A stretch of DNA of 64,000 bases from Crossiella cryophila (GTDB lineage: Bacteria > Actinomycetota > Actinomycetes > Mycobacteriales > Pseudonocardiaceae): assembly GCF_014204915.1 (NCBI RefSeq), contig NZ_JACHMH010000001.1, forward strand, positions 186,001-250,000, read 5' to 3'. Below, one piece after another: positions 6,315-12,681 of the stretch; the stretch's first letter is position 1; every line of letters starts with the position of its first letter. The position numbers and the translations under genes are program-made. The notes beneath the pieces are model-generated. The model saw nothing but the letters and a program-made list of their open reading frames with translations. It did no database searches and was not told the origin of the DNA.

Positions 6315-9287
6315 TCAGTTCACGCACGGGCAGGCCCACCGGCGGTGCCAGTGCGGGGCCTCGGCCGACTCCCGGATGCCCAGCCGGTCGAAGACCTCCC
6401 TGGCCTCCCGCCAGGCCCGGTGCGCCGCGGGCTCGTCCCCGGCCGCCGCGTGCGCCGCGCCCACGTCGCGCAACGTCCTGGCCCGCCACACCGGCAGGCG
6501 CAGCTCGGCCCAGCCGGTCAGCGCCAGGTCCAGGTAGCGCAGGGCGGGTTCGACCTGGCCCTGGGCCAGGCGGCTCTCGCCAAGGGTGCGGTGCAGCAGG
6601 GCCAGGCCGAAGGTGTCGTGCAGGGACTGGCTGGTCTGGGCGGCGGTGAGCAGGGCGGCCTCGGCCTGTTCGGGGCGATGCTGGCGGATCCAGACCTTGG
6701 CCAGGGCCTGGGTGGTGTAGCAGCCGAGCAGGTCGTCGGCGACCGCGCTGACGATGCGGTGGCTGCGGCGGCAGTAGTCCTCGGCCTCGTCCCAGCGGTC
6801 GGCGGCGCGGTGCACCAGGCCGATGCCACGCAGGGCCAGGGCCTCGCCGCGCTCGTTGCCCGCGGCGCGGTAGGAGCTGGCGGCGGCGGTCAGGGTGTCG
6901 ATGGCCTCGGGGTCCTCGCCGAGTTCGCGGTGGGCGTAGCCGATGCCGTACAGGGCGTGCGCGACGCCTTCCTCATCGCCGCTGGTGGCCAGCATGTCCC
7001 TGGCCCGGCGCAACGCGGGCAGCGCGGCGGCGTGGTCGGCGAGTTCGCGGCCGACCATGCCGATGCCGTTGAGCGCGACCGCCTCGCCCCTGGTGTCGCC
7101 GACCTCGGCGAAGAGCGCCCGCGCGGTGCGGAAGTGGGTGCGGGCCAGCTCGTAGCGGTCCCGTTTGTAGTGCAGCTGGCCCAGGCTGCACTCCAGCGCG
7201 GCCTCGCCCCTGCGGTGCCCGGTGCGGCGCAGTGCGCTGATCGCGGCCTCGTGCGTGCGGGCCCAGCCGTCGTAGCGGTTGCGCACCGCGAAGAAGCTGA
7301 ACACCAGCGCCTCGGCCAGTGCCGCGGCCAGCTCGGCCAGGTCCAGTTCGGCCGCCCTGGACACCGCGGCCACCAGCGCGGCCTCCTCCTGCTCGAACCA
7401 GCGCTCGGCGCCGGTGATCCGCGGCCGGGGCTGGGTGCTCAGGTCGGTGTGGCAGAGCCGGGGCACCGCGGGCGGCAGTGGCTCGGCCAGCTCGTCCACC
7501 GCGGCCAGCAGCGCGGTCACCGCCCGGCGCACCGCCTCCCGCCGCTCCCCGGCGGTGTCCTCCAGTTCGGCGCGTTCCCTGGCGTGCAGCCGGACCAGGT
7601 CGTGCATCCGGTACCGCAGTGGCTCGGCCGGTTCGCTGCTGACCTCGATCAGCTGGGCGTCCACCAGCTGGTCGAGCACGTCCTCCGCGGTCTCCTCCGG
7701 CTCGCCCAGCAGCGGCGCGGCCAGCCAGCCCGGCAGGTTGCCGTAACCCAGCGCGCCCAGCAGCCGGTACGCCCGGCGGCTCGCCTCGTCCAGGCCCAGG
7801 TAGCTCACGGCCAGCCCGGTGCGCACGGCCAGGTCGCCGACGGACAGCTCGTCCAGCCGCCGCTGCTCGTCCCGCAACCGGCCAAGCAGCCGGGACACCG
7901 GCCAGTGCGGGCGGGCGGCCAGCTTCGCCCCGGTGATCCGGATCGCCAGCGGCAGGTACCCGCACAGCTGCGCCACCTCGGCCACCGCCGCGGTCTCCGC
8001 GTGCACCCGCTCCGCGCCCAGCAGCCGCGTGAACAGCTCCCGCGCGTCCACCGGCGGCAGCACGTCCAGCGCGACCCGGCGCACCCCCTCCAGCCCGGAC
8101 ATCCGGTGCCTGCTGGTCACCAGCACCAGGCAGTCCGCGCCGCCGGCCAGCAGCGGCCGGACCTGGCCTGCCGCGGCCGCGTCGTCGAGCACCACCAGCA
8201 CCCGCCGCCCGGACAGCTCGGCCCGCCACAGCGCGACCCGCTCCCGCAGCCCCTCCGGGATCCGCTCCCCCGGCACCCGCAGCGCGCGCAGCAGCGCGTC
8301 CAGCACCTCCTCCGGCCCGAGCGAACCCAGTTCGACGAAGAGCTGCCCATCCGGATAGCGCGGGGCCAGCCGGTGCGCGGCCCGCACCGCCAGCGCGGTC
8401 TTGCCCACCCCGGTCGGCCCGTCCAGCCACCACACCGGCAGCACCCCGGAGTCCTGGCCGCCCACCGCGCACAGCCTGGTCAGCTCGGCGACGCGGCCGG
8501 TGAAGTCGGGCACGTCGCGCGGCAGGTGGTTGCGGCTGACCGGCGCGGGGGCAGCGGGCGCGGGCCGGGGTTCGGCGAGCAGTTCGCGGTGCAGGCGCTG
8601 TAGTTCCTGGCCGGGTTCCACGCCCAGTTCGGCCACGGTCAGCGCGCGGGCCTCGTGGAAGACCCGGAGTGCCTCGGCCCGCCGTCCGCTGTGGTGGAGC
8701 GCGGTCATCAGCTGGGCGCGCATCCGTTCCCGCAGCGGGTGCTCGGCCAGCAGCGCGGGCAGTTCGGTGACCAGTTCGGCGTGCCGGCCCAGCCGCAGGT
8801 CCGCGTCCATCCTGGCCTCCAGCGCGGCCAGTCGTTCCTCTTCCAGCCCGGCGAAGAACCGCTCCCGCATCCGGTCCGAACCGATGTCGGCCAGTGGTCT
8901 GCCCCGCCACAGCGAGAGCGCCCTGCGCAGCAGGATGCCCGCCTGTTCGGGGTCGGACTCCCGCCGGGCGGCCGCGGTCCAGGCCCGGAAGCGGTGCAGG
9001 TCGACCTGCTCCGGCCGGACGGACAACACGTAACCGGGTGGGCTGTGCCGCAGTGGCACGGCGAGCAGCTGACGCAGGTGCGAGATGTGCACCTGGAGCG
9101 CCTTGCGCGCGTTCGGCGGCGGCGCCTCGCCCCAGACCGCGTCGATCAGCCGGTCGGTCGAGGTGATCACGCCGGGGTTGAGCAACAGCAGGGCCAGGAT
9201 CTGCCGGGCGCGCGGCGGCGGCTGTTCCTTCGGCAGCCCGGACGCCCAGATCTCCACCGGACCGAGAATGCGAAATTCCTCCACCAT
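6315..9287 (-). CDS. SARP/AfsR-family transcriptional regulator (BTAD, NB-ARC, TPR)
   Basis: A 990-residue regulator. The N-terminus (1-95) is an OmpR-type winged helix (EEFRILGPVEIW ... ALQVHISHLRQLL). A bacterial transcriptional activation domain follows (about 100-240, VDLHRFRAW ... LHRELLAEP). Next is an NB-ARC ATPase with Walker A GPTGVGKTAL (about 288-297), Walker B VLVVLDD and sensor VLVTSRHR. The C-terminal third is TPR-rich (repeats such as GEALALRGIGLVHR). Proteins of this layout activate antibiotic or other specialised-metabolism genes, with the ATPase/TPR part as sensor. No biosynthetic cluster is visible here, so it is an orphan in this window. Downstream it meets the Nudix gene stop to stop, and upstream lies the CHAP gene on the same strand. 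Confidence 0.93.
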   Translation of the reverse strand: MVEEFRILGPVEIWASGLPKEQPPPRARQILALLLLNPGVITSTDRLIDAVWGEAPPPNARKALQVHISHLRQLLAVPLRHSPPGYVLSVRPEQVDLHRFRAWTAAARRESDPEQAGILLRRALSLWRGRPLADIGSDRMRERFFAGLEEERLAALEARMDADLRLGRHAELVTELPALLAEHPLRERMRAQLMTALHHSGRRAEALRVFHEARALTVAELGVEPGQELQRLHRELLAEPRPAPAAPAPVSRNHLPRDVPDFTGRVAELTRLCAVGGQDSGVLPVWWLDGPTGVGKTALAVRAAHRLAPRYPDGQLFVELGSLGPEEVLDALLRALRVPGERIPEGLRERVALWRAELSGRRVLVVLDDAAAAGQVRPLLAGGADCLVLVTSRHRMSGLEGVRRVALDVLPPVDARELFTRLLGAERVHAETAAVAEVAQLCGYLPLAIRITGAKLAARPHWPVSRLLGRLRDEQRRLDELSVGDLAVRTGLAVSYLGLDEASRRAYRLLGALGYGNLPGWLAAPLLGEPEETAEDVLDQLVDAQLIEVSSEPAEPLRYRMHDLVRLHARERAELEDTAGERREAVRRAVTALLAAVDELAEPLPPAVPRLCHTDLSTQPRPRITGAERWFEQEEAALVAAVSRAAELDLAELAAALAEALVFSFFAVRNRYDGWARTHEAAISALRRTGHRRGEAALECSLGQLHYKRDRYELARTHFRTARALFAEVGDTRGEAVALNGIGMVGRELADHAAALPALRRARDMLATSGDEEGVAHALYGIGYAHRELGEDPEAIDTLTAAASSYRAAGNERGEALALRGIGLVHRAADRWDEAEDYCRRSHRIVSAVADDLLGCYTTQALAKVWIRQHRPEQAEAALLTAAQTSQSLHDTFGLALLHRTLGESRLAQGQVEPALRYLDLALTGWAELRLPVWRARTLRDVGAAHAAAGDEPAAHRAWREAREVFDRLGIRESAEAPHWHRRWACPCVN

Positions 9288-9392
9288 TGGCCCCCGGCGC
9301 AGACGGCTGAACGGCCATTGTTGGGCCCGATTCAGCCGGTTGTCTGCCCCCGTGGGTCGCCCCGCGCACTCAAGAACCTGATATCGAAACGA

Positions 9393-9430
9393 TCAGCCGG
9401 GCGGATTTTCGACCCCAGCCGCCCGGCTGA
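9393..9430 (-). terminator. Hairpin terminator of the CHAP gene
   Basis: A perfect 12-bp stem (TCAGCCGGGCGG against CCGCCCGGCTGA) closes a 14-nt loop, 18 bp after the CHAP stop codon. There is no clear U tract, which is common in GC-rich actinomycetes. Confidence 0.65.
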
Positions 9431-9447
9431 CCATTCCCGCGCTGCCC

Positions 9448-10143
9448 TTACGGCCTGGTGCCGCCGTAGAAGGTGCTCCCGCTCAGCGTGCGGGTGACCC
9501 GGCGGACCGCGTTCTGCTGGTTGCCCTCGATCATCTTCACCGTGCTGCCGGAGCGGGATTCGATGATGCCGATGTGCGTGCTGGTGGACGGACTGGACGG
9601 CCCGGTGCCGAACAGCAGCACGTCACCCTTGACCGCCGAACCCAGGTTCGCCTTGCTGTAGGACTTGCCGTTGCGCTGGCCCCACTTGTAGACGTCGCCG
9701 GTGAACGGGTACTGCGGGATGCTCACCCCCGCCTTGCGCCAGACCCAGGTGCTGAACAGGGCGCACCAGGCCACACACTGCGAGGAGTACTTGGTGCAGT
9801 TGCTGCCGGCGGGCCGTTCCCCGTTGCCCAGCTCGGCCGCGGCGAACCGGACGATCTGGTCCCGGTCGGCCAGGGTGCCGGCCGGCGCGGCGGCCACCGG
9901 CACGGTGTCGGGCTGGGTGGCCGCCGTCCTGGCCGCGTCCTGGGCCAGGAACTCCCGCAGCGCCTCGCCGGTGAGCGGGCGGCCGTCCAGATCCTCGACC
10001 GCGAGCACGGCGGGCGCCACGGTGTCCGGATCCTCTGCCGCGATCGCCGGGCCGGTGACCACGGACGAGGCCAGCAACAGGCTGGCCCCGACCCCCAGTA
10101 CGGTCAGACCGCGAACGAGGCGCCGCGGGATGGTCTTCTCCAT
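9448..10143 (-). CDS. Secreted CHAP-domain peptidoglycan hydrolase-like protein
   Basis: A 231-residue protein with a Sec signal peptide (two arginines near the start, hydrophobic core to about residue 35, AIAAE cleavage region). A linker leads to a CHAP-type amidase/peptidase domain. The likely nucleophile Cys lies in VAWCALFSTWVW, the His in THIGIIES and the polar partner near MIEGN. Extra cysteines in NCTKYSSQC could form a disulfide. CHAP enzymes cut peptide or amide bonds in peptidoglycan, so a wall-remodelling role outside the cell is likely. AGGGG precedes the ATG by about nine bases. The 170 bp upstream show no riboswitch that I can name. Confidence 0.82.
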   Translation of the reverse strand: MEKTIPRRLVRGLTVLGVGASLLLASSVVTGPAIAAEDPDTVAPAVLAVEDLDGRPLTGEALREFLAQDAARTAATQPDTVPVAAAPAGTLADRDQIVRFAAAELGNGERPAGSNCTKYSSQCVAWCALFSTWVWRKAGVSIPQYPFTGDVYKWGQRNGKSYSKANLGSAVKGDVLLFGTGPSSPSTSTHIGIIESRSGSTVKMIEGNQQNAVRRVTRTLSGSTFYGGTRP

Positions 10144-10317
10144 GGCAGGTTTCCCCTCATCGGCATCACCGCGCTTTCCGCGGCGAGGTCAGGGTCGGCC
10201 AGCCCGCCTAATACCCGCCAAAGAAACGGTTAAGCTCTCGTTCTGGTGAATACCGGCAAGTTTGTGCACTGAAGAAGGACCAGTCCGCGAGAGCGCTCCC
10301 GCAATGGTTACCCATGC

Positions 10318-10352
10318 GTGCTCAGCGCGGTCCGTCACGCCGCGCTGAGCAC
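10318..10352 (-). terminator. 13-bp-stem terminator, probably the original ychF terminator
   Basis: A perfect 13-bp stem (GTGCTCAGCGCGG against CCGCGCTGAGCAC) closes a 9-nt loop. It lies 10 bp beyond the distal copy of the ychF 3' end. It now ends the Fic transcript, but its position relative to that copy suggests it served ychF before the Fic cassette arrived. Confidence 0.7.
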
Positions 10353-10362
10353 GTTGAGCGGG

Positions 10363-10392
10363 TCAGACGTTGAAGCGGAACTCCACCACGTC
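10363..10392 (-). repeat. 30-bp direct repeat, distal copy of the ychF 3' end
   Basis: Read on the minus strand, it begins GACGTGGTGG and ends AACGTCTGA. It is identical over 30 bp to the last nine codons plus stop of ychF at 11602-11631. The match stops abruptly at both edges. The Fic stop codon (10391-10393) overlaps its inner edge by two bases. Confidence 0.92.
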
Positions 10393-11527
10393 AGCGCTTG
10401 TACGGATCGATCAGTGTCAGTGGTGTCCGGGCTGATTCCAGGGCTGAAGCCGGAAAAGCGGAGCCGACGGTGTAGAAACGGGCGCGGGTACGACCGACCG
10501 GTGTCAGGATGCCTGCCATGACCAGGTCCCGCAGGTCACGTTGGGCTCGCTGCAACCCCAGGTCCTCGGCTCGTTCGTAGCGCGTCCGGCGCACCCGGCC
10601 CGACATCGCCACGTCATACAGCGCCGACACCACCCTCTGCTCCAGCCCTCGGGCCTCCGCGAACTCACCGAGCAGAACCCACACTTGGCTCGAACGATCC
10701 AGTCGGCCACGCACGGTCTGCGCCTGCTGGTGATACGCGGTGAGATTGAAGCGGACCCAGTCAGAAACGTCCTGGCCGGGGAGGTAGGTCGCCCCTCGGT
10801 GTTGCAGTTCGCGGTAGTACTCCCAGGTATTGCCAGGCCGCCCCAGCCAAGCCTCGATTGAGGAGAACTCCGGGGCCAGTTCTCCCTCTCTCGCGATCAT
10901 GAGTGTTTGGAGGGACCGGGACATGCGGCCGTTGCCGTCCGCCCACGGGTGAATGGAAACGAGATGCAGATGCGCCATGGCAGCCCGTACCAGCGGATGG
11001 CTGCCGTCATCCGTGTTCAGCCACTCGACCAGCTCACCCATCAACGACGGCACGTCGACCGCGTCCGGCGCCGTGTACACCGCGATGCTGGGGTCACGCG
11101 CGTCCGTCACGTACACCGCACCATGGCGCCATTGCCCGGCCGGCTTCCGCCGAGTGTGCCGGTGCCCCTGCAGCATCCAGTGGAGCGAGTTGAGGAACTC
11201 CTTGCCATAACGGAAGTCCGAGACATCGTGAAGCGTCTGAATGTAGGTCATCATCCGCTGATAGGCGAGCGTCTCGTCGCGATCTTCCTCGGAGACGTCG
11301 ACGTCCCGCTCGCCCTCCAGGAGGTCCTCGACATCGACTGTGGCCACCTTGAAGCCCTCGATCGAATTGGAGGCCGCAACCGCGTCAGCTGTCAAGAACT
11401 TGCGCAACCCCTCAGCCCATTTGGCCGGAGTGTTCCGCACCTGCTGGCGCAACGAGCGACGAAGGCCGTCGATCTCCCCAAGGACGCGCTGGTCCTCAGC
11501 GTTGAGAGCAGGTGTGGGGTAAAGCAT
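10391..11527 (-). CDS. Fic family protein (predicted AMPylase) with C-terminal winged helix
   Basis: A 378-residue protein starting MLYPTPALN. The Fic motif HPWADGNGRMSR (193-204) is complete, with catalytic His194. An N-terminal inhibitory motif of the S-x-x-x-E-G type (SNSIEG, 53-58) marks it as a class II, self-inhibited Fic enzyme. Such enzymes transfer AMP or another nucleotide moiety to a protein hydroxyl. The C-terminal about 70 residues (QRVVSALYDVA ... ARFYTVG) look like a winged helix, so the protein may bind DNA. The start at ATG 11527 is preferred. An in-frame ATG at 11554 lies inside the palindrome 11542-11562, which argues for the shorter form. No separate antitoxin gene accompanies it. 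Bounded by duplicated ychF ends. Confidence 0.9.
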   Translation of the reverse strand: MLYPTPALNAEDQRVLGEIDGLRRSLRQQVRNTPAKWAEGLRKFLTADAVAASNSIEGFKVATVDVEDLLEGERDVDVSEEDRDETLAYQRMMTYIQTLHDVSDFRYGKEFLNSLHWMLQGHRHTRRKPAGQWRHGAVYVTDARDPSIAVYTAPDAVDVPSLMGELVEWLNTDDGSHPLVRAAMAHLHLVSIHPWADGNGRMSRSLQTLMIAREGELAPEFSSIEAWLGRPGNTWEYYRELQHRGATYLPGQDVSDWVRFNLTAYHQQAQTVRGRLDRSSQVWVLLGEFAEARGLEQRVVSALYDVAMSGRVRRTRYERAEDLGLQRAQRDLRDLVMAGILTPVGRTRARFYTVGSAFPASALESARTPLTLIDPYKR

Positions 11528-11541
11528 GCCCCAACGATAGA

Positions 11542-11562
11542 TTGACGCAATCATTACGTCAA
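11542..11562. promoter_or_regulatory. 21-bp near-perfect palindrome at the Fic promoter (candidate operator)
   Basis: Arms TTGACG and CGTCAA enclose a nearly symmetric centre. Nine of the ten base pairs match around a single central base. On the Fic strand the arm TTGACG could also be the -35 element, so a bound protein would block transcription. The site is 14 bp from the preferred Fic start. The Fic protein's own winged helix is a plausible binder (inference). Confidence 0.6.
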
Positions 11563-11601
11563 TGCGTCAGGCCGGACCGCGAGGCCCGGCCCCTGCCGCC
11601 C

Positions 11602-12681
<1,080 letters not shown>

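Follow-up and report, generated by a model that had tools for sequence, protein, structure and literature searches.

We found that the Fic gene behind ychF in Crossiella cryophila is probably a one-gene cassette, placed at a gene end that would serve one clade of large serine recombinases (LSRs) as attB and cassettes without an LSR of their own as landing site. In our judgement, this cassette is a member, now immobile or remodelled, of a cassette system that is driven by LSRs and resembles SCC elements and integrons. The evidence comes from the window, the whole analysed stretch of 64,000 nucleotides, and from comparison with genomes of the same family and class.

The Fic unit behind ychF

On the minus strand of the window, ychF is followed by the Fic gene and then by a second, distal copy of its own last nine codons and stop (Table 1). 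The two copies are identical over 30 bp, have the same orientation and lie 1,239 bp apart from start to start. In the 10.06-Mb genome, searched with up to three mismatches, this sequence is present twice and nowhere else. The Fic stop codon and the distal copy overlap by 2 bp, and a hairpin with a perfect 14-bp stem (arms 10317-10330 and 10340-10353) lies 9 bp beyond that copy. Fic is the one convincing gene between the copies according to the open reading frames and Pfam, and no integration or transfer gene is found there. The first-pass annotation of this DNA had described the repeat with Fic in between, the intact ychF and the contact of the Fic stop with the distal copy, all of which we confirmed. 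An assembly artefact or a chance repeat is ruled out by the exact 30 bp, the single contig and the relatives that are arranged alike.

Table 1. Features at the ychF locus of the window
Feature	Position	Strand	Domain or model match
ychF (engD), 359 aa, intact; 3' end as putative attachment site	11602..12681	-	Pfam YchF-GTPase_C 1.8e-38
Proximal 30-bp copy (last nine ychF codons and stop); 24-bp core = 11602-11625	11602..11631	-	
G+C-rich short inverted repeat, 8/9 pairs, inside the cassette just past the ychF stop; possible terminator	11570..11591		
Inverted repeat spanning the Fic start codon; possible autoregulatory operator	11542..11562		
Fic-domain protein, 387 aa, SoFic-like	10391..11554	-	Pfam Fic 3.1e-15; PADLOC SoFic 2.4e-42
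Distal 30-bp copy of the ychF end; upstream arm not of the LSR P-type	10363..10392	-	
Strong hairpin past the distal copy; not present at the empty sites in G003 and G004	10317..10353		
Gene with a CHAP domain, native neighbour on the downstream side; shows where the empty sites of congeners are joined	9448..10143	-	

The Fic unit at the ychF of the window is an insertion, because two congeners (G003 and G004) have a single copy of the core joined to the genes that flank the unit here. In both, the core is followed by about 24 bp, a stretch 85% identical to part of the distal flank of the window, the CHAP gene (95 and 94% amino-acid identity) and the same regulator (87%). The four other genomes of the genus in our comparison contain one copy of the core each. 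In G001, about 1 kb of other sequence separates ychF from the CHAP gene (77%); in G002, the ychF of which is 99% identical to that of the window, the CHAP gene was not found within the 3.8 kb examined. The regulator immediately follows ychF in G245, from the genus of G237. An insertion at a ychF attachment site, as proposed in the first-pass annotation, is supported by the empty sites in relatives, by close Fic genes at ychF in another genus, by different genes between duplicated ychF ends in further genomes and by an LSR clade at the site. The hairpin fared differently: it had been described as lying where the native ychF terminator would be expected, but G003 and G004 lack it at their empty sites, so it is no conserved ychF terminator.

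Among 390 family genomes, eight have a Fic match at 1e-80 and three a close one: the window (100%), G237 (88% amino-acid identity) and G242 (88%, measured over a fragment of a broken gene). All three close genes sit at ychF, G237 and G242 being two genomes of another genus. In G237, Fic is placed after a second, longer copy of the ychF end, and G242 has a 17-kb LSR element, directly beyond whose distal core the broken gene begins. A stretch similar to the inverted repeat at the Fic start is present in both of these cassettes. At four-fold sites, the window and G237 agree in 59% of positions in Fic and in 68% in ychF, and between the genera Fic divergence equals or exceeds that of ychF. Amino-acid identity between G237 and G242 is 95.0% for ychF and, over a fragment of 193 residues, 86.5% for Fic; within their genus, Fic therefore does not track the species. 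A recent transfer of Fic is not supported by these divergences; the Fic sequences are old.

The between-genus divergence would fit vertical inheritance, in which Fic is an old gene after ychF that most relatives have lost and the repeat is incidental. We consider this highly improbable in view of the two single-copy congeners with joined flanks, the restriction of close Fic to 3 of 390 genomes, the exactness of the 30-bp repeat, and the other genus pair, which differs more in Fic than in ychF. A wider occurrence of Fic at ychF was also considered and rejected: in the five relatives fetched from other families (70-77% identity), the roughly 1.5 kb of available flank contains no core of the ychF type.

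The Fic protein of the window matches the SoFic model PDLC03963 of PADLOC over residues 17-362. It contains the Fic motif HPWADGNGR and, N-terminally, a motif of the inhibitory type, SNSIEG. The earlier description as toxin-like is therefore better replaced by that of a SoFic-type defence candidate, as far as the model match can tell.

Large serine recombinases at the ychF end

A 14.7-kb element is inserted at ychF in G144, and the start of its LSR gene adjoins the distal core. This LSR matches Pfam Resolvase and Recombinase; the element also encodes a Prim-Pol protein, which fits an AICE-like element, and no clear transfer genes were identified in it. Searching the family with this LSR gave matches at 1e-40 in 37 of 390 genomes. 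As scoring covered the few best-ranked candidates in each genome, weaker LSRs may have gone unnoticed; in the genome of the window, no match at E<=1e-40 was obtained among the 4 of 42 candidates scored. At the 30 LSR loci fetched, the seven most similar genes (48-100% identity) have a ychF-type core beside them, and the other 23 (at most 41%) have none. A tyrosine recombinase was considered and rejected as the agent: the G242 element does contain a tyrosine integrase, but the core-adjacent gene is an LSR in 7/7 cases. In three genomes (G192, G193 and G194), LSR and ychF are on different contigs. One LSR appears twice and inverted on a 33.7-kb metagenome contig of G193 (C58; L124/L139), probably an assembly palindrome, and was counted once.

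The native tail of YchF, EFRFNV, is altered in all seven genomes with a core-adjacent LSR, the replacements including EFRTGITSGSKK, EFRHGATSSLTKKA and EFRFSPTSGSTK. A wider scan gave 102 LSR relatives, of which 80, from many actinobacterial genera, were kept; ychF or the core is present in the locus of 63 of them. Among the 48 loci that hold ychF, the tail is altered in 38, reads FNVT in nine and is native in one. The 95 native tails of our family survey are not independent evidence in this respect, because its loci were selected for a single FNV-type core match. LSR-integrated loci of the scan (L155-L234) show a YchF C-terminal tail of the EFR..TSGGKK type in 38 of the 48 cases with ychF, and G557 likewise has an altered tail of the LSR type. 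The annotated variation of actinobacterial YchF tails may thus be largely element-encoded.

Several loci of the scan show further arrangements. In L192, L195-L197 and L200-L204, from Corynebacterium, Actinotignum, Varibaculum and Arcanobacterium, the LSR begins 31-33 bp past ychF and the tail is FNVT. Two different ychF-type element ends stand in tandem behind a single ychF in L223 (about 7463-10001), the first with the tail TGLTSGAKR, the second of the FNVT type and accompanied by an LSR about 2.5 kb further. L161 combines an LSR with a native ychF tail and core copies 9.8 kb apart; this element seems to preserve ychF as the cassettes do.

We joined the ends of 11 LSR elements, and the best palindrome is centred between the G and the T at the start of the core in 11/11. 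The palindrome match lies above the shuffle maximum in three joined sites (G144 with 21 of 24 positions, G322 with 18, L156 with 17), equals it in one (G156, 14) and stays below it in seven (G242, L162, L190, L207, L228, L161 and L233, with 7-13), among which L228 was joined at the wrong place. At the same centre, attB sites are non-palindromic (6-9 of 24). An attR profile was built from 22 LSR-adjacent training sites and used to score 108 loci with 859 kb in total, after four of 112 had been dropped for want of a native core. On the plus strand, it matches exclusively at loci with a second copy or a P arm; on the minus strand, it has no match in the 859 kb.

Cassettes, arrays and their cargo

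A second core or a P arm follows ychF in fourteen further genomes of the family that gave no LSR match at 1e-40 (G045, G051, G059, G088, G093, G096, G108, G133, G149, G217, G237, G344, G346 and G381; G051 tentatively, with a P arm only). Six of 93 loci that were picked blind to a second copy (L067-L079 and 80 more) are occupied at ychF, one of them tentatively. The 93 also include G009, which was left out of this count as no ychF was found beside its sites. On its stretch (L236/L009), three att-like sites follow one another and no ychF was found, so that they are either an array fragment or sites outside ychF. Four loci with a weaker second copy of 4-5 mismatches (L245, L260, L269 and L280) were likewise left uncounted. 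The ychF end was read in ten cassette genomes (window, G045, G108, G133, G149, G217, G237, G344, G346 and G381), nine of which have the native tail; G381 reads FSN.

Many of these units contain candidate defence or toxin-antitoxin genes. A HipA-like and HIRAN pair (PDC-M03A/B) is found in G045 and again at ychF in G096. Other cargo comprises an AbiEii-like gene in G108, barely over the Pfam cut-off, to which the insert of G149 is homologous by DNA; an Mrr-type mREase_IV gene (G133); ApeA (G344); AbiD (G088); a Doc-like Fic gene after a small gene (G093); and, from G876, a GajA/OLD-like gene together with a PIN-domain gene behind a ribbon-helix-helix gene. Non-defence cargo is present, too, with an AraC regulator, a methyltransferase, an alpha/beta hydrolase, NUDIX, a phosphatase and F420-related genes. 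Several cargoes matched nothing: the G346 cargo and the small G237 gene have no Pfam match, and G217 has helix-turn-helix matches alone. The cargo scan leaves out most genes of the G381 array.

We divided the left arms of the distal ends at a score of 7.3, a cut that was chosen after the scores had been seen. Thirteen of 21 distal end-arms reach it and resemble the LSR-type arm (G108, G133, G217, the third of G344, three of G381, G149, two of G009, G093, G096 and G051); the arms of the window, the G237 Fic end, G045, the second copies of G237 and G344, G346, G059 and G088 score lower. The distal arm of the window (-18.7) is background-like, i.e., no P-type arm. Native ychF arms range from -11.6 to 4.8 in a family sample (n=7), with the window's own ychF arm at 4.8, and reach 10.5 in other families (G949), so the arm score does not cleanly separate native from LSR-type arms; eight of the 21 end-arms exceed 10.5. 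Of 36 non-ychF sites at the class-level loci, ten have a score of at least 7.3 and eight exceed 10.5.

For the window copy, homologous or illegitimate recombination could account for such an arm: an incoming ychF end with Fic would have been joined inside the older ychF, leaving a 30-bp remnant. This would agree with the lack of a P arm in the window, G045, G346, G059, G088 and the second copies of G237 and G344, with the cargo stop codon that abuts or overlaps the remnant in the window and in G045, and with the varying length of the remnant, which extends from 30 bp (window) to 52 codons (G344) and 54-55 codons (G881 and G817). However, a close Fic gene is also found beside the core of the G242 LSR element at ychF, and G096 has the PDC-M03 pair of G045 at its ychF, too, where the arm scores 9.6; both cargoes are therefore linked to the site. 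We consider recombination of this kind rather unlikely as the origin of the window copy, although, with no recognisable P arm, an eroded site-specific cassette and one joined by other recombination look alike there.

In the class as a whole, the 24-bp core pattern (up to two mismatches) was found in 334 of 394 genomes, and 37 genomes, that of the window included, have at least two copies on one strand; a control with the reversed pattern gave one match in the table. Positions were evaluated for 32 of these 37: in 23, the copies share a contig and lie at most about 8.3 kb apart, one has an overlapping pair, and eight have copies on separate contigs. The largest array, in G876, consists of six sites, the ychF core and five more within 5.7 kb; its best LSR match is 30%, i.e., it has no close LSR. 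Four sites are found within 1.7 kb in G492, the first two ychF cores of which lie 204 bp apart (L326), possibly a gene-less cassette. Some second copies of the ychF end near or inside arrays are longer, with 52 codons in L062 (G344) and 54-55 in L344 (G881) and L328 (G817). These lengths exceed a site-specific core and thus suggest that homologous exchange takes place at ychF as well. The stretches of G836 and G982 gave no ychF match.

The strongest evidence at class level comes from two genomes of different families, G381 (f1) and G1045 (f51), which have in common a stretch of 1,503 bp that is 95.0% identical, starts about 10 bp before the left core and ends in the right core, with 1,471 bp from core to core in both. 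In G1045 this cassette lies directly at ychF, the last codons of which its left half-site appears to supply; in G381 the same cassette is part of the array, and the neighbours differ. It has a hybrid site that combines a P-like left arm (distal arm score 6.1 in G1045 and 8.2 in G381) with a right half encoding EFRFNV-stop. By its sequence, this is a cassette that moves as a unit.

Alternatively, the cassettes may be remnants of LSR elements from which the recombinase and most other genes have disappeared while the ends persisted, as in CIMEs; they would then move solely as passengers of a related element that has integrated next to them. The G133 insert has a left end, past the ychF stop, that resembles that of the G156 LSR element, and the G242 LSR element directly adjoins the Fic cassette, as such a descent would predict; the native ychF tail in nine of ten cassette genomes would be expected if the element had exited via the nearest distal site. 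Yet most units are compact inserts of one or two genes, and the cassette of G381 and G1045 looks like a unit of its own. Moreover, no second att-like site was found beside the LSR element in 34 loci, which represent about 30 different genomes as four of them repeat a genome, and G242 is the one known tandem of element and cassette. Decay as the general origin of the cassettes is thus unlikely in our view.

A small mobile cassette without recombinase, as the first-pass annotation had envisaged, fits the whole set, including the one cassette in two families. It does not fit the window copy equally well, which has no LSR-type arm, an old Fic gene and a genome with no LSR match at the above threshold. 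The window cassette belongs to the ychF locus and now looks fixed, because both the P-type arm and an LSR match in the genome are missing.

Proposed mechanism and related systems

We propose that the LSR exchanges strands at the GT dinucleotide with which the 24-bp core starts; both the catalysis and this crossover point are predicted. The right half-site of a cassette would encode the last residues of YchF, EFRFNV-stop, so that the host ychF would survive and the core would be duplicated. Insertion at ychF would in this way keep the gene and re-create the entry site, allowing cassettes to stack into arrays. LSR-encoding elements mostly swap the ychF tail instead, e.g., for EFRTGITSGSKK. The family genomes with cassettes only have no LSR match at 1e-40 and G876 has none that is close, so the recombinase has to be supplied from outside; cassettes may be mobilised in trans by LSR elements or carried along with them.

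Taken together, these steps would describe an integron-like serine-recombinase system in Actinomycetes, with ychF as a standing entry site and small cassettes with hybrid sites, many of them with putative phage-defence genes, that stack, spread between families and use the LSR of visiting elements. We put this general system forward tentatively, as a possibility that is somewhat less secure than the cassette nature of the Fic unit itself.

In integrons, small gene units form arrays with a recombination site between neighbouring units, and the enzyme is the tyrosine integrase IntI. The ychF arrays share this layout, but the site is a ychF-derived core, the associated enzyme is a serine recombinase rather than IntI, and the cargo lies on both strands. 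The staphylococcal recombinases CcrAB and CcrC are large serine recombinases, and pseudo-SCC elements exist without ccr.

The nearest known arrangements are SCC composite islands and CIME accretion. As described in the accessible part of PMC7029136, SCC elements occupy a conserved housekeeping gene (orfX/rlmH), are flanked by direct repeats, form composite islands and encode the recombinase in some cases, all of which is also found here; in contrast, the site is ychF and not rlmH (orfX), the hosts are Actinomycetes, and the units often measure 0.2-2 kb, with one or two genes. In CIME and IME accretion, elements without integration genes but with attachment ends stack with integrase-bearing elements (accessible text of PMC5704250). 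The window unit, too, has no integration or transfer genes; at its ends, both core copies are kept and the P arm is missing. The ychF units are, however, smaller than CIMEs, their cargo is often a single module, and a likely descent from an integrative element is visible for G133 alone.

Among AICEs, 19 of 144 have serine recombinases, and some integrate in protein-coding genes (PMC3218068, accessible part). The G144 element with its Prim-Pol and LSR genes resembles them, but ychF is not named as a site in that part of the source, and transfer genes are not clearly identified here. In Streptococcus, pneumococcal prophages and satellite prophages integrate next to ychF, according to the accessible parts of PMC8637289 and PMC10383233; those are prophages upstream of ychF or between the genes next to it, with other att sequences, whereas we describe gene cassettes. 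Our literature search, which excluded most subscription papers and all bioRxiv preprints, found no earlier description of this ychF site in actinobacteria.

If the proposed system holds true, small modules for defence or of the toxin-antitoxin kind would share one port across a large bacterial class, the end of a widely conserved gene, and new defence systems could be sought among its contents. The system would represent a serine-recombinase counterpart to integrons and explain much of the variation of actinobacterial ychF tails as element-encoded. Furthermore, it would make a new LSR/attB pair available for engineering the genomes of actinomycetes.
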